Assembly (NCBI RefSeq): GCF_900163695.1
Contig: NZ_FUIC01000029.1
Location: 1 to 56,300 of the forward strand
Reading direction: 5' to 3'
DNA length: 56,300 nt
DNA from: Gulosibacter sp. 10
GTDB taxonomy: Bacteria; Actinomycetota; Actinomycetes; Actinomycetales; Microbacteriaceae
Part shown: one piece after another, positions 10,050 to 53,408 of the stretch
Numbering within the stretch: the stretch's first letter is position 1
Layout of the letters: every line of letters starts with the position of its first letter
The notes under the pieces: generated by a model
Told to the model about the DNA's origin: nothing
Seen by the model: only the letters and a program-made list of their open reading frames with translations
The model's database searches: none
Position numbers and translations under genes: made by a program

Positions 10050-10126
10050 CCAGCATGCCGCAGATGCGTCACAGTCCGTCGTTCCGACCGGGCCGGAACG
10101 ACGGACTGCGACGCATCTTGCGGGGC
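10050..10126. repeat. Diverged member of the palindromic repeat family (copy A)
   Basis: A near-perfect hairpin: CCGCAGATGCGTCACAG continues into TCCGTCGTTCCG and is mirrored by CGGAACGACGGA, CTGCGACGCATCTTGCGG. The outer AGATGCGTCRCAG segment matches the repeats at 49.6-51.2 kb. The inner stem has a different sequence but is fully self-complementary. It lies 10 nt past the BCCT stop, where it may act as a terminator or attenuator. Confidence 0.75.
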
Positions 10127-10135
10127 GCCGCCGCG

Positions 10136-12007
10136 CTAGTCCTCGGGGTCCCGCCGCGAGAACATCCCGCGCGTGCGCGAGAGCCGGTAGTCGATGCGGT
10201 CGTCGACGTAGGTCTCGACCTCGGGGCGCTCGCCGATGGTGCTCGCCCACTCGTCGGTGATCCGCTGCGTGACCCGCTCGAGCCGCTCGCGCTGCTCGTC
10301 GCGCTTGCGCACCTTGTCGTCGAGCACCAGGGCTCTCACCGTGGCCCAGCTCATGAGCAGCAGCACCACGCTGAACGGCAGCGCCGTCGCGAGGGCCGCC
10401 GACTGCAGCCCCTGCAATCCGCCCGCCACGAGCAGGCCGATCGCCACGAGGCCCTCGATGAGCGACCACAGCACTCGCGACCAGACCGGCGGGTTGGGGT
10501 GTCCGCCGGAGGCGAGCATGTCGACCACGAGCGAACCGGAGTCGGAGGAGGTGATGAAGAACAGCGCCACGATGATGATGCCGGCGATCGAGAGGATGCT
10601 GCCCATCGGCAGCCCGCCGAGCACCGTGAAGAGCGCCCCCTCGGCGTTCACCTCGCCGTTCTCGACGAGATCGCCCTCGCCGAAGAGCTGGCGGAAGAGC
10701 CCCGCGCCGCCCATCACCGAGAACCAGATGAACCCGACCAGCGCCGGCACGAGCAGCACGCCCGTGATGAACTGGCGCACCGTGCGGCCGCGCGAGATCC
10801 GCGCGATGAAGATGCCGACGAAGGGCGACCAGGAGATCCACCAGCCCCAGTAGAAGATGGTCCACTTCGAGAACCAGCCCTGCGCCTCGTCGGTGCGGTG
10901 GAAGGCGCCGACGTCGAAGGTCATCTGCATGAAGTTCGCGAGGTAGTAGCCGAGCGACTCGGTGAAGTTCTGCAGCAGGAACAGGGTGGGCCCGAGCAGC
11001 AGCACGCTCACGAGCAGCAGCCCGGCGAGCGACAGGTTGATGTTCGAGAGCCACTTGATGCCCGCGCCCAGGCCGCTGACCACCGAGAAGGTCGCGAGGA
11101 AGGTGATCACCGCGATGAGGATCACGAGGATCGTGTTGTCGACGGTGTCGACGATGCCGATGGACTGCATGCCCGACGAGATCTGCTGGACTCCGAGGCC
11201 GAGCGAGGTCGCGATGCCGAAGACGGTGCCGAAGATCGCGAGGATGTCGATGACATCGCCGACCCAGCCCTTGACCCGCTCGCCGAACAGCGGCTCGAGG
11301 GCCCAGCGGATCGAGACGGGGCGGCCCCGGCGGTGGATCGCGTAGCCGACCGCGAGGCCGATCATCGCGTAGATCGCCCACGGGTGCAGGCCCCAGTGGA
11401 TGAAGGTCTGGGCCATCGCGAGCCCCGCGAGCTCCTCCTGGCTGCCGTCCCAGCCGGGCTTCTGCTCGACGGTGGCGTAGGTGACGGGCTCCCCGACGCC
11501 GTAGAAGACGAGGCCGATGCCCATGCCCGCGGCGAAGAGCATCGCGAACCACGAGAGCACGCCGTACTCGGGCCGCTCGTCGTCGCGCCCGAGCCGGATC
11601 TTCCCGAGCGAGGAGGAGGCGATGAAGATCGCCAGCACGATGAAGAGGGCGATGACCAGCATGTAGTACCAGCCGAAGGTCGCGACGATCCAGTCCTGGA
11701 CCGTGATGAATACCTCTCCCGCCACATCCGGCAGGAGGATCGCGAACAGCGCGACGCCGAGCACTACGATGAGCGCCGGCCAGAAGACGCGCGGTGAGAT
11801 CATGCCCTTGCCGATGCGCACGCCGTGACGGCGCAGCTTGGCGACGATCTTCGCGTCCGTGTCGTCGTCGCCGATCTGCACCGCCCGGTGCAGCCGCACC
11901 GTCTCGGGGAGCCCTGACTCATCGACGGCGGCGGCCTGCCCGGGCCCGTTCGATTCGGGCGGCTCGCCGCTCTCGGACGTACTGGAGGTGTGCTCCTGAG
12001 AGCTCAT
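10136..12007 (-). CDS. BCCT-family glycine betaine/choline/carnitine-type transporter
   Basis: 623 residues with twelve predicted membrane helices from about residue 75. BCCT hallmarks are present: MLFAAGMGIGLVFYGVGEP in the sodium/substrate region, FIHWGLHPWAIYA, and the tryptophan-rich box IFYWGWWISWSPFVGIFIAR. Family members import glycine betaine, ectoine, carnitine or choline with sodium for osmoprotection. The N-terminal extension (about 70 residues) is acidic, and the C-terminal tail (RKRDEQRERLERVTQRI onward) is long and charged, as in BetP-like osmosensing carriers. The ATG at 12007 was chosen because the upstream in-frame part is not transporter-like. A four-codon minimal ORF (ATGGGAAAATGA) overlaps this start. 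Confidence 0.92.
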   Translation of the reverse strand: MSSQEHTSSTSESGEPPESNGPGQAAAVDESGLPETVRLHRAVQIGDDDTDAKIVAKLRRHGVRIGKGMISPRVFWPALIVVLGVALFAILLPDVAGEVFITVQDWIVATFGWYYMLVIALFIVLAIFIASSSLGKIRLGRDDERPEYGVLSWFAMLFAAGMGIGLVFYGVGEPVTYATVEQKPGWDGSQEELAGLAMAQTFIHWGLHPWAIYAMIGLAVGYAIHRRGRPVSIRWALEPLFGERVKGWVGDVIDILAIFGTVFGIATSLGLGVQQISSGMQSIGIVDTVDNTILVILIAVITFLATFSVVSGLGAGIKWLSNINLSLAGLLLVSVLLLGPTLFLLQNFTESLGYYLANFMQMTFDVGAFHRTDEAQGWFSKWTIFYWGWWISWSPFVGIFIARISRGRTVRQFITGVLLVPALVGFIWFSVMGGAGLFRQLFGEGDLVENGEVNAEGALFTVLGGLPMGSILSIAGIIIVALFFITSSDSGSLVVDMLASGGHPNPPVWSRVLWSLIEGLVAIGLLVAGGLQGLQSAALATALPFSVVLLLMSWATVRALVLDDKVRKRDEQRERLERVTQRITDEWASTIGERPEVETYVDDRIDYRLSRTRGMFSRRDPED

Positions 12008-29815: not shown

Positions 29816-30955
29816 ATGCACGCGAAGCCATCGGACGCAGAAGTCGTCGTGATCGGGCTGGGGGCCGCCGGCTCCCACGCCGCCCGGCGGATCGCCGAAA
29901 CGGGCGTCGAGGTCATCGGCCTCGAGGCCGAGCAGCTCCTGCACACCCGCGGCGCCTACGCGGGCGAGAGCCGGCTCTTCCGGGCCGCCTACCACGAGGG
30001 CGCGGAGTACGTGCCGCTGCTGCTCGAGTCGCGCGAGGAGTGGCTCGAGCTGCAGCGAGGGGGATCCCGCGAGATCCTCCGCGAGACGGGCGTGCTCTCG
30101 ATCGGCTCGGCCGCGGCGCCCCAGATGCGCCGGGTACGCGAGTCGCTCCGGCACGCGGGCGTCGCGCACCGCGCGCTCTCGACCGCCGAGCTGCGGGAGC
30201 AGCATCCCCAGCACGGCGGCATCACCGACGAGATCGGCGTGCTCGACCTGCTCGGCGGCGTGCTGCGGCCCGAGGCGGCCGTGGCGGAGCTGCAGCGGCG
30301 GGCGCGCCTCGCGGGCGCCGAGCTGCGCGGCGGGCAGCGGGTCGCCGCCGTCGAGGAGCGCGGGAATCGCGCGATCGTGCGGCTCGGGCACGGCGAGGAG
30401 CTGAGCGCCCGCGTCGCGGTGCTCGCCCCCGGCGTGCACGCGCCCGCCCTGCTGCCGCGGCTCGCGCCGCACCTCGTCATCCGTCCCATCGGCCTCACCT
30501 GGTTCTGCCCCGAGGACGCGGAGGCGTTCTCGCCCGAGCGCTTCCCCGCGTTCATCCGCGACCACGGGAGCACGCACCTCTTCGGCGCCCCGACGCTCGA
30601 CGGCACGCTCGTGAAGGCCGGCTACGACGCGCGGCTCGGCACCATCGCCGATCCCGCCGAGCTCCCCGGCGCGCTCGCCGACGAGCAGCGCGAGGCCGTG
30701 GCCGCCGACGTGCACCGCCTGCTGCCCGGGCTGCCGCCGTACGTGGCCCGCGAATCCGTCCACATGGACCTCTTCACCGCCGACAAGCGCCCCGTCATCG
30801 GTGCGCTCGGCGAGCGGATCGTCGTCGGCATCGGGTTCTCGGGACACGGATTCAAACTCGCACCCGCGGTCGGGAACGCGCTCGCCGACCTCGCGCTCGC
30901 GCGGCCGACCCGGCACGACCTGTCGGCCTTCTCTCCGGACCGGTTCGCGGGCTGA
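29816..30955 (+). CDS. FAD-dependent amine oxidase, SolA/monomeric sarcosine oxidase family
   Basis: 379 residues. The FAD-binding motif is EVVVIGLGAAGSHAARRIA, followed by YAGESRLFRAAYHEGAEYVPLL as in MSOX/N-methyltryptophan oxidase. The C-terminal GIGFSGHGFKLAPAVGN is highly typical. These enzymes oxidise secondary amines such as sarcosine or N-methyl amino acids to aldehyde, amine and peroxide. The Cys that carries FAD covalently in MSOX appears to be His here (SVHMDLFTADKRPVIG). The ATG at 29816 follows GAGGAGAC. Divergence from amtB-glnK suggests nitrogen scavenging. Confidence 0.87.
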   Translation: MHAKPSDAEVVVIGLGAAGSHAARRIAETGVEVIGLEAEQLLHTRGAYAGESRLFRAAYHEGAEYVPLLLESREEWLELQRGGSREILRETGVLSIGSAAAPQMRRVRESLRHAGVAHRALSTAELREQHPQHGGITDEIGVLDLLGGVLRPEAAVAELQRRARLAGAELRGGQRVAAVEERGNRAIVRLGHGEELSARVAVLAPGVHAPALLPRLAPHLVIRPIGLTWFCPEDAEAFSPERFPAFIRDHGSTHLFGAPTLDGTLVKAGYDARLGTIADPAELPGALADEQREAVAADVHRLLPGLPPYVARESVHMDLFTADKRPVIGALGERIVVGIGFSGHGFKLAPAVGNALADLALARPTRHDLSAFSPDRFAG

Positions 30956-30970: not shown

Positions 30971-31098
30971 GCGCAGCCCGTGTTCTCGCACAGATGCATC
31001 GGCACAGCTGCGTCGGCACAGATGCGTCGCAGAATGCGGTTATGCGGGGCCCGGAACCGCGATCTGCGACGCATCTGCGGGATGGGCACGGGCTGCGC
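30971..31098. repeat. Nested palindrome with repeat-family copy B and three 14-bp direct repeats
   Basis: Copy B (about 31018-31078) is the best palindrome of the family: ACAGATGCGTCGCAGA then TGCGGTT, mirrored by AACCGCG, TCTGCGACGCATCTG. Upstream lie three tandem 14-mers, GCACAGATGCATCG (30988), GCACAGCTGCGTCG (31002) and GCACAGATGCGTCG (31016). Outer 12-bp arms GCGCAGCCCGTG (30971-30982) and CACGGGCTGCGC (31087-31098) enclose the whole. It lies between convergent genes, where it may terminate transcription. Confidence 0.7.
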
Positions 31099-31167: not shown

Positions 31168-31701
31168 CTACTCCTGCGGGTAGGTGCGTGGCGGGCGGGA
31201 GGCCTCGGTCCAGCGCTCGACCCACTCCGGGGTCCGGCGATCCTCGGGGATGCCGCCGGCGAGCGCGGCCACCTCGGCGACGTCCACGCCGCCGCCCTCC
31301 TCGCGGAGGAACCGGCCGCGCACGATCGCGTGGGCGTACACGGTCTCGCCGATCACGAAGGTCTGCTCGACGTAGAACCACCGCTCGTCCATGCCGATGA
31401 TGCGGGTGCGCAGGTCGAAGCGCTGCCCGAGCTTGAGCGACCTCCGGTACGAGATCGTCTGCCCCGCCACCACCGGATACCAGCCCTCGCGCCGCAGCTT
31501 CGGCCAGAACCCGGAGCGGAACATGAGATCCATGCGCCCCAGGTCCATCATCGTGAGGTACTTGCCGTTGTTCACGTGCCCGAGCAGGTCGAGGTCGGCC
31601 ACCCCCACCCGCAGCGACGTGCGCGCCGTATCCCAGATGCCGAGTCGGCCGCCCCGGCGCCGGCGCAGCCGGAGCAGCAGCAGCCGCAGGTACATGTTCA
31701 T
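31168..31701 (-). CDS. Acyl-CoA thioesterase-like hotdog protein (THEM6-like)
   Basis: 177 residues. A basic, hydrophobic N-terminus (MNMYLRLLLLRLRRRR) may attach it to the membrane. The hotdog-fold core is VADLDLLGHVNNGKYLTMMD, with the 4HBT-type Asp/His and Asn-Asn-Gly triad, followed by YRRSLKLGQRFDLRTRIIG and WFYVEQTFVIGETVYAHAIV. Such proteins hydrolyse acyl-CoA thioesters; the substrate is not predictable. It converges with the SolA-like gene across the nested palindrome and is followed at its 5' side by ugd in the same direction, 113 nt apart. Confidence 0.85.
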   Translation of the reverse strand: MNMYLRLLLLRLRRRRGGRLGIWDTARTSLRVGVADLDLLGHVNNGKYLTMMDLGRMDLMFRSGFWPKLRREGWYPVVAGQTISYRRSLKLGQRFDLRTRIIGMDERWFYVEQTFVIGETVYAHAIVRGRFLREEGGGVDVAEVAALAGGIPEDRRTPEWVERWTEASRPPRTYPQE

Positions 31702-46784: not shown

Positions 46785-48080
46785 ATGCCCGCGCGAGTCC
46801 AGCCCTCCGACACGTGGCGCCGGATCGCGGTGCCGCCGTGGCGGTTCCTCCTCGGCGGCGCGCCCTGGCGGGCGCTCGCCTATCTGGTCCTCAGCGCAGC
46901 CGTGGCGGTGCTCTTCGCGCCCCTTGCGATCGCCACGTTCCTCATCATCCCCCTCTGGGGCATCCTGCTCGGCGCGCTCGAGCGGCACCGCGGCAGGATG
47001 CTCGGGTTCCCCGCGGTGCCCAGCGGGCACGTGCCCGTGCCGCGGGAGGAGCGCGGCCACTGGCTGGGCATCCGGATGACGGAGGCCGCCACCTGGCGCG
47101 AGACGACCGTGCTGCTCGTCGACATCGTGGCGGGGGCGGCGGCCGTCGTGCTGCTCTTCTTCCAGACGGTATTCCTCATCGTGCCCATCGGCCTCGCCGT
47201 CATCGCGTCGGGCGAGGAGCGCGAGGTCACGGTCTTCGGCGACCTCGGCCTGCGGGTCGGCCCGGAGAACTGGTGGGCGCCGCTGCTGCTCGTGCCGCCG
47301 CTCCTCGCCGTCTACGCCTATACGAACGCCCTGCTCGCCCTCGGCCAGGCCTCGCTCGTCCACTGGATACTCGCGCCGCGGGGCGACGAGCTCGAGCAGC
47401 GGATCGCGCAGCTGGCCCGCTCGCGCGCGGCGATCGTCGCGGCCCACGAGGAGGAGCGCCGGCGCATGGAGCGCGATCTGCACGACGGGGCGCAGCAGGA
47501 GCTGGTGGGCGTCGCCGCCGCGCTCGGCGTGCTCGAGCTCGAGCTGATCTCACTCGATGCGGACACCGCCGGGGCGAGGTCCGCGCTCGACCTCGCCCGG
47601 GCCCGCACCGAGCAGGCGCTCGCCTCCCTGCGCGCGACCGTGCACGGCATCCGCCCCGCGGTGCTCGCCGATCGGGGGCTCAGCGCGGCGATCGAGGAGC
47701 TCGCGGTGCGGGCGCCCCTCCCCGCCGAGTTCCGGGGCGGCGAGCTCGAACGGCTCGACCCGGCCGTCGAGAGCGCGGCCTACTTCTTCGTCGCCGAGGC
47801 GATCACGAACGCCGCTAAGCACAGCGGCGCCGAACGGGTCGTCATCACGGCCTCGGGCGGGGAGCGCGTCCGGATCGACGTGGCCGACGACGGCCGCGGC
47901 GGCGCCGACCCCGCCCGCGGCACCGGGCTGATCGGGCTCCGCGAGCGCATCGACGCGGTCGGCGGCGAGCTGCGCATCTCGAGCCCCGCCGGCGGGCCCA
48001 CCGCGCTGTCGATCGAGGTCCCGGCCGGCGGGCCGGCCCGGGCGGAGGAGTCCGCGGATGCGAATCCTGCTCGCCGATGA
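46785..48080 (+). CDS. NarL-class sensor histidine kinase
   Basis: 431 residues. Four hydrophobic segments in the first 200 residues form the membrane sensor with no large extracellular domain, as in intramembrane-sensing kinases. HisKA_3 dimerisation/phosphorylation helix EEERRRMERDLHDGAQQEL carries His233. The ATPase domain has FFVAEAITNAAKHSGAERV (N box), VADDGRGGADP (G1) and GTGLIGLRERIDAVGG (G2). It would phosphorylate the overlapping response regulator. The leaderless-type start and the divergent FtsX-type ABC transporter suggest an envelope-stress module. Confidence 0.9.
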   Translation: MPARVQPSDTWRRIAVPPWRFLLGGAPWRALAYLVLSAAVAVLFAPLAIATFLIIPLWGILLGALERHRGRMLGFPAVPSGHVPVPREERGHWLGIRMTEAATWRETTVLLVDIVAGAAAVVLLFFQTVFLIVPIGLAVIASGEEREVTVFGDLGLRVGPENWWAPLLLVPPLLAVYAYTNALLALGQASLVHWILAPRGDELEQRIAQLARSRAAIVAAHEEERRRMERDLHDGAQQELVGVAAALGVLELELISLDADTAGARSALDLARARTEQALASLRATVHGIRPAVLADRGLSAAIEELAVRAPLPAEFRGGELERLDPAVESAAYFFVAEAITNAAKHSGAERVVITASGGERVRIDVADDGRGGADPARGTGLIGLRERIDAVGGELRISSPAGGPTALSIEVPAGGPARAEESADANPARR

Positions 48081-48714
48081 CGCGACGCTGCTGCGCGAGT
48101 CGCTCATCATGCTGATCGAGCGGCTCGGACACGAGATCGTGGCGACCGCGGAGGATGCGCCCGGGCTGCTCGACCGCTACGGCGCCCTCGCCGCGGAGGA
48201 GCGACCCGACCTCGTCGTCACGGACGTGCGGATGCCGCCCGGGGACGGCGACGACGGGCTGCGGGCGGCCCTGCGCATCCGCGCGGCGAATCCGCGCCAG
48301 CCGGTCCTCGTGCTCTCGCAGTACCTCGGCGACCGGTCGGCCCGCGAGCTGCTCACGCTGCCCGAGGGGGCCGTGGGATACCTGCTCAAGGAGCGCGTGG
48401 GGCGCATCGCCGACTTCGACCGCGCGATGCGCTCCATCGCGGCCGGCGGCACCGTCATCGACCCGGAGGTCACCCGGCACCTGCTGCACGCGCCCGCGCC
48501 CGGCCCGCTCGACGCGCTGACCGCTCGGGAGCGGGAGGTGCTCGAGCTCATGGCCGAGGGCGCCGCCAACCACGAGATCGAGGAGCGGCTGCACCTCAGC
48601 CCCGCGACCGTGCGCAAGCACGTAGGCAATATCTTCACGGGGCTCGGTCTGCCGCCGAGCGAGGAGAACCGGCGCGTGCGCGCCATCCTCCTCTACCTCG
48701 AGCACCGGCGGTGA
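48058..48714 (+). CDS. LuxR/NarL-family response regulator
   Basis: 218 residues. Receiver domain: MRILLADDATLLRESL, phosphoacceptor Asp56 in LVVTDVRMPP, and VLSQYL and YLLKERVG with the conserved Thr/Ser-to-Lys switch residues. The C-terminal LuxR helix-turn-helix is LTAREREVLELMAEGAANHE, IEERLHLSPATVRKHVGNIF. Its ATG lies 23 nt inside the kinase gene, indicating tight coupling. The likely target is the divergent ABC transporter, whose intergenic region holds a short palindrome at 46718-46733. Confidence 0.92.
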   Translation: MRILLADDATLLRESLIMLIERLGHEIVATAEDAPGLLDRYGALAAEERPDLVVTDVRMPPGDGDDGLRAALRIRAANPRQPVLVLSQYLGDRSARELLTLPEGAVGYLLKERVGRIADFDRAMRSIAAGGTVIDPEVTRHLLHAPAPGPLDALTAREREVLELMAEGAANHEIEERLHLSPATVRKHVGNIFTGLGLPPSEENRRVRAILLYLEHRR

Positions 48715-48717
48715 CCG

Positions 48718-49524
48718 CTATCCGCCCAGCAGCTCCCCCACCTTGTGGCGGTTCCACACCGAGAACGTCGTGCCGTTCTTCATCGTGCGGTGCTTCGCCC
48801 ATCCGGCCTCGACCGCGGCCTCGCTCGCGAGCGAGCCGTCGCGCAGCCCCGCCTCCGTCAGCCGGCGGCCGACCTGCTGCGCCGTGAGCCCGTGGGCCTT
48901 GCCGATCTCCGTCATCGTCTGCCACGCGCCCGAGGCCTTGCGCTGCGGCTTCTCGCCGGTCGCGCCGTCCTTCGCCGCGCCCGTCTTCCCGGCGCCGCTC
49001 TTGCCCGCGCCGGCAGACCTGCCGCCGGGCTGCCTCGCGGCGGCGGCCGCCGAGGCCTCGGCCACGTCCTCGATCACGCCCGTCTGCTCGCCGAACCCCG
49101 GATCCGTGGCCGCGTTCGCGTACTGGTCCGCGAGCGAGTTGAGCGGCGCGCTGTTGCTCGCGTCGTGGGCGCGCACCCATTCGAAGGTCACCGGCGCGCT
49201 CGACCGGCGGGCCGCCACGAGGTCGATGATCTCGTAGATGAGCTCCTGGTTCTTCTTGTCCTTGACGCCCTTGCGGCGCCAGTTCGGCCCCCAGGTCGTG
49301 ACGCAGTTGATCGCGTACTGCGAGTCGCTCAGCACCCGCAGCGGCCGGTCCGGATTCGCCTCGATCGCGAGCTTGATCGCGGTGAGCTCGCCGATGTTGT
49401 TCGTGCCGTGGCCGAGGTGCTTCGCCTGCCAGCGGCCGTCCTCCGCGACCCAGGCGCTGCCGGTCGGGCCGGGGTTCTTGGGCGCGGCCCCGCCGTCGGT
49501 GCCGATAGTCAGAATGTCGTTCAT
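48718..49524 (-). CDS. rnhA: RNase HI with a C-terminal extension
   Basis: 268 residues. The RNase H domain covers residues 1-150. Active-site acids are visible: Asp10 (GTDGGAAPKNPGPTG), Glu46 (NIGELTAI), Asp67 (LSDSQYAIN) and Asp133 (LNSLADQYAN) with His120. It degrades RNA in RNA-DNA hybrids. After a Gly/Ala/Lys linker (about 155-195) comes an added domain of about 70 residues (WQTMTEIGKAHGLTAQQVGR) with helix-turn-helix character, unusual for RNase HI. A TAGGGT box ends 8 nt before the ATG. It converges with the response-regulator gene, only 3 nt between stops. The repeat island begins just upstream of its start. Confidence 0.88.
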   Translation of the reverse strand: MNDILTIGTDGGAAPKNPGPTGSAWVAEDGRWQAKHLGHGTNNIGELTAIKLAIEANPDRPLRVLSDSQYAINCVTTWGPNWRRKGVKDKKNQELIYEIIDLVAARRSSAPVTFEWVRAHDASNSAPLNSLADQYANAATDPGFGEQTGVIEDVAEASAAAAARQPGGRSAGAGKSGAGKTGAAKDGATGEKPQRKASGAWQTMTEIGKAHGLTAQQVGRRLTEAGLRDGSLASEAAVEAGWAKHRTMKNGTTFSVWNRHKVGELLGG

Positions 49525-49532
49525 CACCCAGA

Positions 49533-49538
49533 ACCCTA
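49533..49538 (-). promoter_or_regulatory. Candidate -10 box (TAGGGT) of leaderless rnhA
   Basis: Minus-strand TAGGGT is followed after 8 nt by the rnhA ATG. The same box sequence precedes the histidine kinase gene. Confidence 0.35.
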
Positions 49539-49566
49539 CGGCCAAACCGGCACGGGCCGCGCGTCC

Positions 49567-49622
49567 CCCGTCCGGCGCCGGCGAATCCCCGGTGCCCGTC
49601 CGGCGTCCACGGATCCCCGGTG
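49567..49622. repeat. Two 28-bp direct repeats upstream of rnhA
   Basis: Units 49567-49594 and 49595-49622 share CCCGTCCGGCG at the start and ATCCCCGGTG at the end, and a third copy begins at 49623. They border the palindromic repeat cluster. Confidence 0.6.
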
Positions 49623-49648
49623 CCCGCGCTGTGTTCGTGACGCTGGGC

Positions 49649-49709
49649 ACAGATGCGTCACAGAATGCGGTTTTGAACATCGAATAACCACACTCTTCGA
49701 CGCATCTGT
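49649..49709. repeat. 61-bp palindromic repeat, copy C
   Basis: Layout 11-6-8-11-8-6-11: outer arms ACAGATGCGTC and GACGCATCTGT are perfect inverts. Inner arms TGCGGTTT and TAACCACA are weakened by substitutions. Confidence 0.8.
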
Positions 49710-49759
49710 CGCCGCCGGGTCCAGCTGGGTCCAGCTGGGGCCGCGTGCCGGCTCGACAT

Positions 49760-49804
49760 CCAGACGGCACCGGCTCGGCAGCCGAACGGATCCCACACGG
49801 CACC
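49760..49804. repeat. 45-bp segmental duplicate S1, first copy
   Basis: Nearly identical (one substitution seen) to 51024-51068. It starts CCAGACGGCACCGGCTCGGC and links copies C and D. Confidence 0.75.
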
Positions 49805-49829
49805 CGAACGGGGCCCGATCTTGCTCTCC

Positions 49830-49890
49830 ACAGATGCGTCACAGAATGCGGTTACGAACACCGGATAACCGCACTCTTCGACGCATCTGT
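49830..49890. repeat. 61-bp palindromic repeat, copy D
   Basis: Outer arms ACAGATGCGTC/GACGCATCTGT and inner arms TGCGGTTA/TAACCGCA are both perfect inverts. The 90 bp 49801-49890 align without gaps to 50896-50985. Confidence 0.85.
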
Positions 49891-49991
49891 TGCCGAGCCA
49901 TCACCCCGAACGCAGCTCCGGACAGGTTGCCCGGGGCCGCGCGTCAGTCCGATGTTGAACGGATTCCTCGATTCGACCAGCTCCTCCCGAA

Positions 49992-50051
49992 TCAGATGCG
50001 TCGCAAAGTGCGGTTTTCATAACGAATAACCGCGTTCTGCGACCGATCTGT
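49992..50051. repeat. 60-bp palindromic repeat, copy E
   Basis: Outer arm TCAGATGCGTC and a changed right arm GACCGATCTGT; inner arms TGCGGTTT and TAACCGCG; right middle TTCTGC retains the ancestral complement of GCAGAA. It lies 152 bp before the start of the 50204 gene. Confidence 0.75.
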
Positions 50052-50203
50052 GGCTAGCGGCAGGCCTCGAGGTGGCCCGCTGCACGGTGTGCCCGGTGAA
50101 CTCTCCGGTACTGCGCAGCCCCGAAGCCACCCGGCTCTCACGATCGACGCTTGAATGGAAGAAAGACGTCCGCCTGCAAGAAATCGAGTACAGGAGCATT
50201 CCG

Positions 50204-50659
50204 ATGCCTATCCCCGAAATAGAATCGACTGAGGAATGGGACATGATTCGACGCGTTCGAGTCGGTACGAGCGAGTTTCGGTGGTTTCTTGCCAGCGAAC
50301 CCGATCTCCCCGAATCGCTCTACTGGGCGCTCCTCGCCAGCCAAGACGATGAGGCCGTGAGTGTCTTGGCGGGAAACTCGGACGCACCCAGGGCGCTGCT
50401 CGAGACGATCGCGCGCTGCGACCCCCTCAACGGCCTTACCGCTCGTCATAATCCCCGCGTCTCCCCCGAGGTGAAGAACCCCACCCGGATCGGGGACCAC
50501 AGTTACGAGTCCATCGATCAGTACCTGATCGATATGGACGCCACCGAGGAGCAATGGGCTGCCTTGCGGCATCTCTACGAGCACAGTCCACATCCCGGCG
50601 GGGTCCTGCTGGAGGAGGCCTGGGAGTCGATCGCCGGTCCATCGGATACACGTCCATAG
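50204..50659 (+). CDS. Hypothetical protein, possibly with LRV-like helical repeats
   Basis: 151 residues, acidic, no signal peptide. Two stretches, VLAGNSDAPRALLETIARCD and ARHNPRVSPEV, resemble the leucine-rich-variant repeat that begins with Val-x-x-Asn and Pro-x-x-Leu-Leu. Its function is not recognised. ATG 50204 has AGGAG 7 nt upstream. The gene is visibly less GC-rich than its neighbours, lies alone between palindromic repeat copies E and F, and is closed by a 15-bp inverted repeat, suggesting acquisition by transfer. Confidence 0.6.
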   Translation: MPIPEIESTEEWDMIRRVRVGTSEFRWFLASEPDLPESLYWALLASQDDEAVSVLAGNSDAPRALLETIARCDPLNGLTARHNPRVSPEVKNPTRIGDHSYESIDQYLIDMDATEEQWAALRHLYEHSPHPGGVLLEEAWESIAGPSDTRP

Positions 50660-50674
50660 CTTCATGCGACGTCT

Positions 50675-50709
50675 CCTGTCGTGAGTGATATCGGATCACT
50701 CACGACAGG
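50675..50709. terminator. Perfect 15-bp inverted repeat after the 50204 gene
   Basis: CCTGTCGTGAGTGAT, a 5-nt loop and ATCACTCACGACAGG. The hairpin begins 15 nt after the stop codon and has no U tract. Confidence 0.65.
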
Positions 50710-50796
50710 TGGCCTTCGCACCGGGAAATCGTTGAGGCAGTAGCAGTCCTTACAGGCCGCCCCGCGCGGCATCGTGGAGAATCCGTCGGCATTCCC

Positions 50797-50857
50797 ACAG
50801 ACGCGTCGCAGATCGCGATTACGGGTGCCGGATAACCGCACTCATCGACGCATCTGT
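50797..50857. repeat. 61-bp palindromic repeat, copy F
   Basis: ACAGACGCGTC against GACGCATCTGT (one substitution in the outer arm), GCAGAT as left middle, and a degraded left inner arm CGCGATTA against TAACCGCA. Confidence 0.75.
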
Positions 50858-50924
50858 CCCCAGCCACTACCGGGCCCCGGCCAGTACTAGAACGACACCC
50901 GAACGAGGTCCGACCTTGCTCTCC

Positions 50925-50985
50925 AAAGATGCGTCACGAAATGCGGTTACGGACGCCGGATAACCGCACTCATCGACGCATCTGT
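50925..50985. repeat. 61-bp palindromic repeat, copy G
   Basis: AAAGATGCGTC against GACGCATCTGT, inner arms TGCGGTTA and TAACCGCA perfect. It is preceded by a duplicate of the sequence upstream of copy D. Confidence 0.8.
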
Positions 50986-51023
50986 CGCCACCGGATCCAG
51001 CGGGGCCGGTACCAGCCCGACAC

Positions 51024-51068
51024 CCAGACGGCACCGGCTCGGCAGCCGAACGGATCCCGCACGGCACC
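51024..51068. repeat. 45-bp segmental duplicate S1, second copy
   Basis: Matches 49760-49804. Here it lies after a palindromic repeat that is preceded by S2, so module order is permuted relative to the first locus. Confidence 0.75.
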
Positions 51069-51096
51069 GGACAAGGCCCGGGCCCGCCCCACACAC

Positions 51097-51157
51097 ACAG
51101 ATGCGTCAGAGAACGCGGTTATGGACACTGCATAACGGCATTCTGCGACGCATCTGT
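51097..51157. repeat. 61-bp palindromic repeat, copy H
   Basis: Outer arms perfect (ACAGATGCGTC, GACGCATCTGT); inner arms CGCGGTTA and TAACGGCA; right middle TTCTGC as in copy E. It lies 77 nt beyond the stop of the glycosyltransferase fusion gene. Confidence 0.8.
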
Positions 51158-51233
51158 AGTCGCGCCGCCGGCCGCGCGAGCCGCAACCGCCGAGCCGCAA
51201 GCCACGAGCCGCGCGCGAGTCGCGAGTCCGGGG

Positions 51234-53408
51234 CTAGCGGTAGGCCTCGAGGTGGAGCTCCGCGCAGCGCGCCCAGGTGAACTTCCCGGCCCTGCGCAGC
51301 CCAGCGGCAGCCCGGCGCTCGCGCAGGTCGGGCCGCTCCGCCAGGCGGCGCAGCGCCGCCTCGATCGACGCCGCCTCGGGCTCGCAGTATTCGGCCGCGT
51401 CCCCCGCCACCTCGGGCAGCGCCGAGAGCCGGGTCGCCACGACGGGCGCCCCGCAGGCCATCGCCTCGAGCACGGGCAGCCCGAACCCCTCCGCGATCGA
51501 GGGGTAGCAGAAGGCCACCGCCCCGCCGAGCAGCGCGCGCAGCTCCTCGAGCGGCAGATAGCCGAGCTCCCGCACCTTCGAATCCGCGCGGCCCGCCTCG
51601 CGGTCGAGCTCGGCAGCCGCATCCGCGTCCCACCCCCGCGCGCCCGAGACGAGCAGCAGCGGCGCATCCGGATCCGCCTTGCACAGCGCCCGATGCGCGC
51701 GCACCAGCTCGCCCACGCGCTTGCGGGGCTCGATCGTGCCGAGGAACGCGATCCAGGGCGCCTCGCCGAGCCCGTGCCGCTTGCGGAACGCCTCCACCTC
51801 CGCCGCCTCCGGGCGTCGGAACACCTCCCGGTCCACACCGTGGTGCGCCACGAGGATGGGGCGGGCAGGCCTGCCCGCGTAGCGCTCGATCTCGCGCGCC
51901 GTCGCCGCGGAGGGCGCGACGAGGCGCACGTTCGCGCGCGTGCCGCGGCGGATCCACCACGCGAAGAAGCGCCGCTTGAGCCCGGTGTGCGCCTCGGGAT
52001 CGCTGAAGAACGTGGCGTCGTGCACCGTCACGACGCGGCGCACCCCCGCCGCGAGCGGGAACGTGTAGTGCGGGGAGTGGATCGCGGCCGCGCCGACCGA
52101 ACTCGCGAGCCGCAGCAGCCCCGTCTGCTCCCACAGGAAGCGCAAACCCCGCCTGCCGATCCACCCCGGCGCGAGGTGCAGCTCGGCGTGCGGCGCCAGC
52201 GCGCGGAAATGCGCTTCGTGCTCGCGCCGCAGCACGATCCGCGGCCGTCCGCCGAGCTCCTCGATCCCCGCCGCGAGGCCCTCGAGGTAGCGGCCCACCC
52301 CGCCCAGCTGGGGCGGCAGCGAGGTGAAGTCGAGCAGCACCGGCAGCCGGCCGCCGTCAGCGCGGGAGGCGCCCCCGGAGACCCCGCGGGAGGCGCCGCG
52401 CGTCGTGTCCTCGTGCGCCGCCCGCCGCTGCGCCGCGAGCCGCCGCGCGCCCCGCAGCCCGGCCAGCGCGCCCCGGATGCGCGCCCGTGCCGCCTCACGC
52501 GCATCCGCGTCGCCGCGCGCACGGAGGAACGATACCCCCGCCCTCGCCGCCGAGAGCGCCGTACGGGTCGTCGCCGTGAGCCGCATCGCGAATGGCCCGT
52601 TGCGCAGCGCGCACCACAGCCGGTTGCGCGTGTTCCACTCGATGAACCTCGCGCTCGCGGTGCCGGAGGAGCCCGCGTGCCGATGCACCGAGACGGCCTC
52701 GGCCGCGTAGACCACCGTCCAGCCGGCCTCGCGCAGCCGCCACGAGAGATCCGTGTCCTCGTAATACATGAAGTAGCGCTCGTCGAACCCGCCGAGCGGC
52801 GCCACGGCCGCGGCGCGGAGCGCGCAGGCGCCGCCGTGGATGCCGAACACCGCCCGCGGGAACTCCGTGCCGACCGGCGCGAGCCAGCCGCGGTCGCGCC
52901 CGTTGCCGCTGCGCGTCACCTGATTGCCCGTCGAGTTGAGCAGCTCCACGCCGCCCTCCTCGACCCGCCGCCAGCGCTCCCCGTCGTGGCCGACGAATCC
53001 GCCCTCCGCGTCCCGTTCGAAGCGTCCGGCGAGGCGGACCTGCGCCGTCGCCGCCCCCGCCCCGGGCGAGGCGTCGAGCGCGTCCGCGAGCCCGGCGACG
53101 AAGCCCTGCTCGTAGATCGCGTCCTGGTTGCACAGCACGTAGGCGTCGGCCCGGGCGAAGGCCATGCCGCGGTTGGCGGCGGTCCCGTACCCGAGGTTCT
53201 CGCCGAGCTCGAGCACCGCCGCGCCCTCGGCCCGGCAGCGCGGCACGGTGTCGTCGGCCGAGCCGTTGTCGACCACGAGCACCGACAGCGCGCGGTCCGG
53301 CACCGACTGCCGCACGAGCGACCGCACCGCCAGCGCGGCCTCCTCCCCGCCGTTCCAGGTCACGACGATCGCGAGCAGGCTTCGGATCGGTTCGGGATTC
53401 TGCTTCAT
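51234..53408 (-). CDS. Bifunctional GT2-GT4 glycosyltransferase fusion
   Basis: 724 residues with two glycosyltransferase domains. The N-terminal GT2 (about 1-300) has LLAIVVTWNGGEEAALAVRS, VDNGSADDTVPRC, the metal site region CNQDAIYEQG and YYEDTDLSWRLREAGW. After an Ala/Arg-rich linker (about 300-350) the GT4 (about 355-724) begins DFTSLPPQLGGVGRYLEGLA and contains FLGTIEPRKRVGEL and the E-x7-E donor site EGFGLPVLEAM. The fusion could add two consecutive sugars. The ATG at 53408 was chosen because the upstream in-frame part lacks domain character. The gene is divergent from rmlB, supporting use of dTDP-rhamnose by at least one domain (inference). Confidence 0.9.
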   Translation of the reverse strand: MKQNPEPIRSLLAIVVTWNGGEEAALAVRSLVRQSVPDRALSVLVVDNGSADDTVPRCRAEGAAVLELGENLGYGTAANRGMAFARADAYVLCNQDAIYEQGFVAGLADALDASPGAGAATAQVRLAGRFERDAEGGFVGHDGERWRRVEEGGVELLNSTGNQVTRSGNGRDRGWLAPVGTEFPRAVFGIHGGACALRAAAVAPLGGFDERYFMYYEDTDLSWRLREAGWTVVYAAEAVSVHRHAGSSGTASARFIEWNTRNRLWCALRNGPFAMRLTATTRTALSAARAGVSFLRARGDADAREAARARIRGALAGLRGARRLAAQRRAAHEDTTRGASRGVSGGASRADGGRLPVLLDFTSLPPQLGGVGRYLEGLAAGIEELGGRPRIVLRREHEAHFRALAPHAELHLAPGWIGRRGLRFLWEQTGLLRLASSVGAAAIHSPHYTFPLAAGVRRVVTVHDATFFSDPEAHTGLKRRFFAWWIRRGTRANVRLVAPSAATAREIERYAGRPARPILVAHHGVDREVFRRPEAAEVEAFRKRHGLGEAPWIAFLGTIEPRKRVGELVRAHRALCKADPDAPLLLVSGARGWDADAAAELDREAGRADSKVRELGYLPLEELRALLGGAVAFCYPSIAEGFGLPVLEAMACGAPVVATRLSALPEVAGDAAEYCEPEAASIEAALRRLAERPDLRERRAAAGLRRAGKFTWARCAELHLEAYR

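Follow-up and report, generated by a model that had tools for sequence, protein, structure and literature searches.

What are the palindromes of about 61 bp that recur between 49.6 and 51.2 kb of this DNA, and what could have dispersed and kept them? The window (the whole stretch that was analysed, 56,300 nt) is contig C45 of genome G000, which comprises 3.65 Mb in 55 contigs. From its letters, the sequence-only reading had picked out six copies with shared arms and, in five of them, a constant 11-6-8-11-8-6-11 layout, had placed further members near 10.1 and 31.05 kb, and had weighed a REP-like or transposase-less (MITE-like) element, a structured RNA and a terminator family, recognising no named one. 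All six starting positions were correct and both outlying members were found, giving the window eight palindromes of 60-61 bp, seven of them 61 bp long (Table 1). The layout held in the five 61-bp cluster copies; the copy at 49992 is one base short and has mismatches in both arms.

Table 1. Palindromes of the family in the window.
Feature	Position	Strand	Details
Copy 1 of the 49.6-51.2 kb cluster	49649..49709	.	61 bp; RNA fold z -6.5
Copy 2 of the cluster	49830..49890	.	61 bp; RNA fold z -8.7
Copy 3 of the cluster, degenerate	49992..50051	.	60 bp; 43-44 bits; RNA fold z -5.2
Copy 4 of the cluster, imperfect inner arms	50797..50857	.	61 bp; RNA fold z -2.2, 6 of 200 shuffles fold equally well
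Copy 5 of the cluster	50925..50985	.	61 bp; RNA fold z -4.9
Copy 6 of the cluster	51097..51157	.	61 bp; RNA fold z -7.2; 76 nt past the stop codon of gene 51234-53408(-), which encodes a glycosyltransferase
Solitary palindrome	31018..31078	.	between convergent genes 29816-30955(+) and 31168-31701(-); RNA fold z -8.1
Solitary palindrome	10060..10120	.	15 nt past the stop codon of the BCCT transporter gene 10136-12007(-); RNA fold z -8.8

Searching the whole genome for the spaced arms (AGATGCGTC-N(30-50)-GACGCATCT) returned 38 occurrences per strand, all 57 nt long with the same spacing, and none for the reversed control pattern, so the family is not a product of chance. A covariance model (R1) built from 48 copies placed at least 76 palindromes in G000 (150 strand-matches scored of 2137 candidates), unevenly spread over the contigs, with 22 on C38, 15 on C33, 10 on C12, eight in the window and one to five on each of ten more. 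Inward from the nearly invariant 11-bp outer arms (ACAGATGCGTC/GACGCATCTGT) lie a variable block, a conserved G, GTT and then a variable loop. Rfam 15 gave no match above its gathering threshold in eight loci, and positions 48000-52000 of the window yielded only mir-50, at 23 of 43 bits.

The sequence-only reading would have counted itself refuted if the genome had no further copies and relatives shared none. The exact G000 arms were absent from all 59 other genomes searched, which goes part of the way towards that, but relatives carry palindromes in which this layout comes with different arms. R1 had matches at E 0.01 in 5 of 11 congeneric genomes; those of G007 (36 strand-matches) and G008 (13) are 60-61-bp palindromes, and the R1 places in G005 and G001 are 37-bp hairpins. 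Two other congeners, G003 and G009 (200 kb each), showed hairpins of an ordinary kind, none of which formed a repeated family by eye. A search of G008 that allowed three mismatches in the outer arms gave 18 places, none with more than one, and the inner stem carries compensated changes. The G008 stems also extend into their flanks, by a mean of 3.9 bp against 1.3 in shuffled flanks (20 copies) with letters that vary by site, which would fit palindromes lodged inside older hairpins; G000 stems have no such extension (0.56 against 0.69). Further afield, G199, which belongs to another family, contains a repeated palindrome type of its own, about 62 bp long, two of the three copies coming from stretches picked for matches to a second model, R2. 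This model rewards any perfect 61-bp palindrome, and its weak matches in distant genera are therefore no proof of homology. Four exact-pattern matches from a scan of named genomes, in Ruegeria, WS1, Microscilla and Clostridiaceae, were set aside on account of inner parts unlike those of the family.

The palindrome positions of G000, G007, G008 and G139 have almost no orthologous neighbours in common, which fits mobility and, equally, turnover without mobility. In G005, a gap whose neighbours flank two palindromes in G000 contains a hairpin of 37 bp that shares the outer arms, an arrangement at most suggestive of a cassette. Two more families occur in G008: the second, also dispersed, consists of 73-75-bp palindromes in which changes are compensated (GGACGAACGGCGAGATTTTGGGGG..., at L186:9063-9135, L186:14713-14785 and L190:7919-7993), and the third of palindromes of 62 bp (L184, L195).

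The sequence-only reading had advised looking for a RAYT/Y1 transposase or another enzyme with matching ends. A likely partner of the second kind was found, of a type that it had not foreseen. Genes lying between neighbouring palindromes (11 places) included one protein family in three genomes with differing arms, G000, G007 and G292, the discovery-set proteins being 33-39% identical to the G000 member. The enzyme, of about 300 amino acids, is predicted to be a DUF559/MTES_1575-like endonuclease with a Vsr-like PD-(D/E)XK fold. Its G000 gene is located elsewhere in the genome, outside the window, and at E 1e-4 neither the window nor the sequence pieces around the other dispersed copies contained a homolog. 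On C38, where this gene occupies 123665-124576 on the minus strand, three tandem palindromes stand on one side of it (123160-123526) and one on the other (124764).

Among 20 homologs, Pfam matches at E 0.01 were to MTES_1575 (PF18741) in nine and to DUF559 (PF04480) in five; one homolog among the scores examined passed the Pfam cut-off itself (L198, DUF559, 23.9 against 20.6 bits). The G000 protein matched no Pfam family at 0.01, so the nuclease call rests on its homologs. Against the PDB, the first three proteins matched PvuRts1I (E 2e-5) and the set of 20 matched the endonuclease-like 3hrl (6e-4), PvuRts1I (0.024) and the "mobile intron protein" 3r3p (0.044). E193, D225, G239 and D252 are invariant in the 20 homologs and Y237 and H242 nearly so, residues with a putative catalytic role. 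Order-wide sampling of 119 genomes found the nuclease family in 101 of them; a single scan of viral contigs for the enzyme found none.

Homologs were then tested regardless of their flanks, a pass being a hairpin on both sides with sequences matching each other at a local score of at least 18, within a flank span of 580 nt in the first search and 780 nt in the order-wide and class-wide searches. The three discovery loci were not counted as tests. In the first search (30 loci of 48 listed matches), matching palindromes bracketed 7 of 30 loci including the discovery set, and 4 of the 27 others, one of these four lying in G199. The order-wide search, covering the best 30 loci, mostly one per genome, of 101 genomes with a match, gave 14 of 30 including G000's own, or 13 of 29 others; one of these 29, L287, coincides with L255, which had earlier turned out to have no pair. 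Class-wide, where the best 30 loci (22 new), again mostly one per genome, came from 112 genomes with a match, 7 of 20 were bracketed, after two loci cut by contig ends, in which the same palindrome was probably counted twice (L322, L335), had been dropped from 9 of 22. Control genes of similar length were bracketed by a matching pair in 0 of 517 cases (8 with hairpins on both sides) and, with the wider span, in 0 of 561 (12 with hairpins on both sides), the best control score being 14; both controls include the 400-kb own-genome stretch described below.

More than half of the homologs lack such a pair: 23 of 30 loci of the first search, 16 of 30 order-wide and 13 of 20 class-wide, including the other two homologs in G000, one of them cut by a contig end. 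Two further loci matched by eye (L263, L265) scored 14 and 13, under the threshold, and were excluded. Among the seven bracketed loci of the first search, two genes are broken, one by two stop codons (L236) and one split over two frames (L243). The bracket arms vary between genomes, and left and right agree within a passing locus, as the test demands. GATCATG occurs in the outer arm of six class-wide brackets (L319, L320, L322, L323, L324 and L326), a possible hint of a wider consensus.

The dispersed copies resemble the bracket of their own genome. Over 17 copies from five genomes, mean scores with the own bracket were 35.0 (G000), 42.0 (G007), 40.7 (G292), 38.3 (G199) and 39.0 (G059), against 6.3-14.3 with the brackets of other genomes. 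When these 17 and the copy at 49992 were compared individually, all 18 scored best with the bracket of their own genome, at 28-46 against 9-23 for the brackets of other genomes; the margin was narrowest for the copy at 10060 (28 against 23). At the level of sequence, this genome-by-genome match separates a cognate system from a gene that sits between two terminators.

One orthologous gap, convergent and lying between DUF503 and a PurL-like gene (AIR-synthase domains) in genus g32, offers a view of the same arrangement across genomes. The 30 loci covered, from 40 genomes with a match, include 20 that hold the endonuclease gene, 17 of these with palindromes detected on both sides; in the others, one side fell under the threshold (L304, L311) or was cut by a contig end (L301). 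A single palindrome without the gene occupies six loci, belonging by eye to two other families. The remaining loci have a decayed palindrome (L318), a different insert, about 0.95 kb long and lacking a hairpin (L294, L312), or no detectable PurL-like end (L317). Gene-end hairpins and putative palindrome-endonuclease-palindrome (P-E-P) units alternate at this gap; since the single palindromes belong, by eye, to families other than that of the gene's bracket, it displays alternative occupants and no clean before-and-after. Agreement between left and right palindromes across 18 gap loci was 34.4 within and 30.1 between genomes (p 0.0002, uncorrected for phylogeny, and with one row, L302, in which the wrong right-hand hairpin was taken and kept). 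The inner type was the same on both sides in 14, different in one and mixed in three, and the two palindromes of one unit thus appear to tend to change together.

We consider the likeliest account to be a selfish unit whose nuclease recognises its own palindrome. In this reading, to which we assign a probability of roughly 0.6, a mobile P-E-P unit underlies the family, the palindromes being its dispersed version without the gene, and the enzyme is cognate to its own palindrome. In its favour stand the two-sided brackets in part of the homologs, the match of bracket and dispersed copies genome by genome, the gene-end position and the covariation in solitary copies. The full unit would consist of the endonuclease gene between two palindromes, which would also occur alone; the enzyme would recognise the dyad-symmetric arms, or an extruded hairpin, and cut, and repair would copy the palindrome, sometimes with the gene, to a new site. 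Similar cut-and-repair copying has been proposed for homing endonucleases and for REP-RAYT systems. Most surviving copies would be those beyond a stop codon or in a convergent gap, places in which a stable hairpin may be harmless or useful as a two-way terminator. Inner-stem pairing would then be selected at gene ends, and the outer arms would be held by enzyme recognition. Recognition and mobility are the weak steps of this account. Counting against it, no insertion event was seen, solitary copies show no target duplication, more homologs than not lack a matching pair, two bracketed genes are broken, and pairing is no better near stop codons than away from them; the arrays, moreover, keep the arms and not the pairing, which terminator function alone does not explain.

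The palindromes could instead be plain bidirectional terminators with a common sequence acquired by local duplication and gene conversion, the endonuclease gene merely lying between two of them, an explanation we regard as unlikely, although their position in the genome speaks for it. With genes called by a codon model trained on the window, none of the 76 palindromes overlapped a predicted gene, bearing out the claim that the repeats lie always outside genes (the control sequence is 82% coding). The own-genome control consists of 400 kb from stretches without a listed element and served for genes and hairpins, not for element absence. Seventy-five copies fall in 49 gaps, 23 convergent, 21 tandem and five divergent (44 of 49 convergent or tandem), compared with 26, 85 and 44 among the 155 gaps of 61 bp or more in the control; the convergent enrichment (23/49 against 26/155) has a binomial p of 9e-7 and a Fisher p of 4e-5. 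A facing stop codon exists for 67 copies, at most 20 nt away in 16 and at most 100 nt away in 33, the other nine copies having none, and a stable hairpin just past a stop codon describes part of the copies. RNA hairpins are strong (29 pairs round a 3-nt loop, -59.4 kcal/mol, in copy L022), ordinary unrelated hairpins occupy the same niche elsewhere, and the g32 gap keeps a palindrome of some family in most species.

These observations support a dispersed, extragenic, structured repeat family with REP-like behaviour at gene ends. The proposal of a terminator family fits as regards gene-end position and fails as regards the U-tract: none of 53 ends has five or more T in 10 nt (T 0.106 against a background of 0.143). 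Pairing is also independent of distance to the stop codon (23.4 of 27 positions both near and far, divided at 60 nt). Terminator function, moreover, would not require the 11-bp arms to be invariant, the length to be fixed at 61 bp or the sequence to be identical to the pair that flanks one gene family, and matching hairpins bracket none of the 561 other genes.

In a second alternative the endonuclease serves host defence or regulation and binds to the palindromes, which act as operators at its own gene and as dispersed sequestering or guiding sites elsewhere. Dyad-symmetric, invariant arms at a fixed spacing would suit a protein dimer, and the weak relation to PvuRts1I, a restriction enzyme, points the same way. 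The contrast between solitary and array copies bears on it both ways. Mean pairing over the first 27 positions was 23.0 in 45 solitary copies and 19.8 in 31 array copies, a set that includes the window cluster. In the variable block (positions 12-18), 88% of cells pair in the solitary copies compared with 69% when arms are swapped (0 of 300 swaps as high), whereas the array copies showed no covariation (57% against 60%). The statement that some copies keep a paired middle block was correct in that the pairing exists, but it understates the pairing found across the genome. Spacers could be aligned in two arrays, with identities of 63% and 70%, against 95% and 93% for the outer arms. Because the array spacers diverged while the arms were kept, and because the solitary copies covary, it seems to be sequence that is conserved in the outer arms and pairing that is conserved in the inner stem of solitary copies. 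Conservation of the arms in arrays that lost pairing is as expected of binding sites, but the hairpin-like covariation of the inner bases is not; operators would be expected upstream, yet the pair brackets the gene, and PADLOC defence families gave no match for three members. We judge this alternative distinctly improbable. The covariation might also arise without selection, if templated repair within quasi-palindromes, a known bacterial process, copied one arm onto the other; as a full explanation this is very improbable, since it leaves the invariant outer arms, the position and the endonuclease unexplained and the array copies uncorrected, although it can coexist with the P-E-P reading.

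Equally little probability attaches to a classical non-autonomous transposon, either the MITE of a DDE transposase or the REP of a RAYT, for all that the elements are short, dispersed and extragenic with inverted ends. The RAYT/Y1 partner suggested by the sequence-only reading was not encountered: Y1_Tnp (PF01797) was found in 0 of 11 congeneric genomes and in 5 of 14 control-ring genomes. Nor did solitary copies show the duplication expected of a target-duplicating MITE, the mean matching flank of 45 such copies being 0.33 against 0.46 in shuffled flanks. Array copies (31) gave 0.61 against 0.33 (p 0.034) and G008 copies (20) 0.40 against 0.16 (p 0.056), in both cases with no consistent length.

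Passages of PMC2817692 and PMC3733652 describe REPs as extragenic palindromes in many copies at convergent or unidirectional gene ends, and RAYT genes as flanked by REPs that match the dispersed ones. The G000 system resembles these REPtrons in its many extragenic gene-end palindromes and in a bracketed gene whose flanks match dispersed copies. Unlike them, it has a PD-(D/E)XK-like partner, with no Y1/HUH enzyme found, and its palindromes are 60-61 bp long with arms that pair to the end or nearly so, where REPs are 20-40 bp with an unpaired GTAG/CGTC end tag; the G000 arms are symmetric, which leaves the element no head or tail. It behaves like REP-RAYT but fails three tested defining features, namely enzyme, size and tag. 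The word Actinobacteria is absent from the main text of both papers. CGTC-tagged REPs (Di Nocera 2013) are described in parts of PMC3733652 as palindromes reported without a transposase, in which CGTC is an unpaired end tag beside an 8-9-bp stem. In G000, by contrast, CGTC lies inside the paired outer arm, and relatives of the same layout have GGTC or other letters.

Three further systems invite comparison. One comprises Vsr-like (EDxHD) homing endonucleases and cassettes of an endonuclease with a short piece of DNA, such as the bypass element of phage T4 gene 60; the present unit shares with them a weakly similar nuclease domain (the 3r3p match) and short noncoding DNA beside an endonuclease gene. 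It differs in that neither an intron nor an intein is involved, palindromes stand on the two sides of the gene and many gene-less copies occur at gene ends. Inverted pairs of DNA uptake sequences act as terminators at gene ends, and the palindromes are likewise inverted pairs at gene ends. Uptake sequences were rejected on the lack of enrichment of single half-sites, a half-site 10-mer occurring 123 times inside elements and eight times outside (184-kb blocks), with six occurrences in 400 kb elsewhere. Integron attC sites (RYYYAAC/GTTRRRY cores, IntI integrase) were set aside on the polarity of their core sites.

If the P-E-P reading holds, dispersed palindromes would gain a partner enzyme in genomes where no RAYT was found, and every endonuclease paralog would be expected to recognise the palindrome of its own unit but not that of a neighbour. 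The reading would also account for the origin of some gene-end hairpins of these high-GC bacteria, and a role would be suggested for a nuclease family whose best-scoring Pfam relatives include one of unknown function. A bolder proposal is that Vsr-like PD-(D/E)XK enzymes mobilise near-perfect palindromes of about 60 bp, alone or as P-E-P units, in an unprecedented form of transposition or homing with gene-end hairpins as targets, in many lineages across the host class that each have their own arms, and that host terminators are partly domesticated selfish DNA; we put this forward tentatively, as possible with the odds somewhat against it. Titles and abstracts from a full-text literature search, to whose scope subscription papers mostly did not belong, contained nothing on DUF559 or Vsr-like genes flanked by palindromic repeats.

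Several smaller features accompany the palindromes of the window and its genome. Directly right of copy 3, at 50047-50142, the 3' end of the glycosyltransferase gene (51227-51323) recurs in degraded form (76-77%), and a 70-bp spacer is repeated at 49738-49807 and 51002-51071 (87%); the cluster seems to have grown by segmental duplication. Partial outer-arm copies of 14 bp abut full palindromes, as ACAGATGCATCGGC ACAGCTGCGTCGGC before the one at 31018 (30990-31017) and as AGCGACGCATCCGC after one on C49 (C49:72233-72246), and these could be products of repair or slippage. A different, perfect hairpin with 15-bp arms and a 5-nt loop stands at 50675-50709, after the small ORF 50204-50659(+), whose protein has a sub-threshold DUF2336 match only. 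A second hairpin family repeated in G000, CCGCCGGGAACCCCGCGA..., was seen in two copies (L103:5183, L118:3866).
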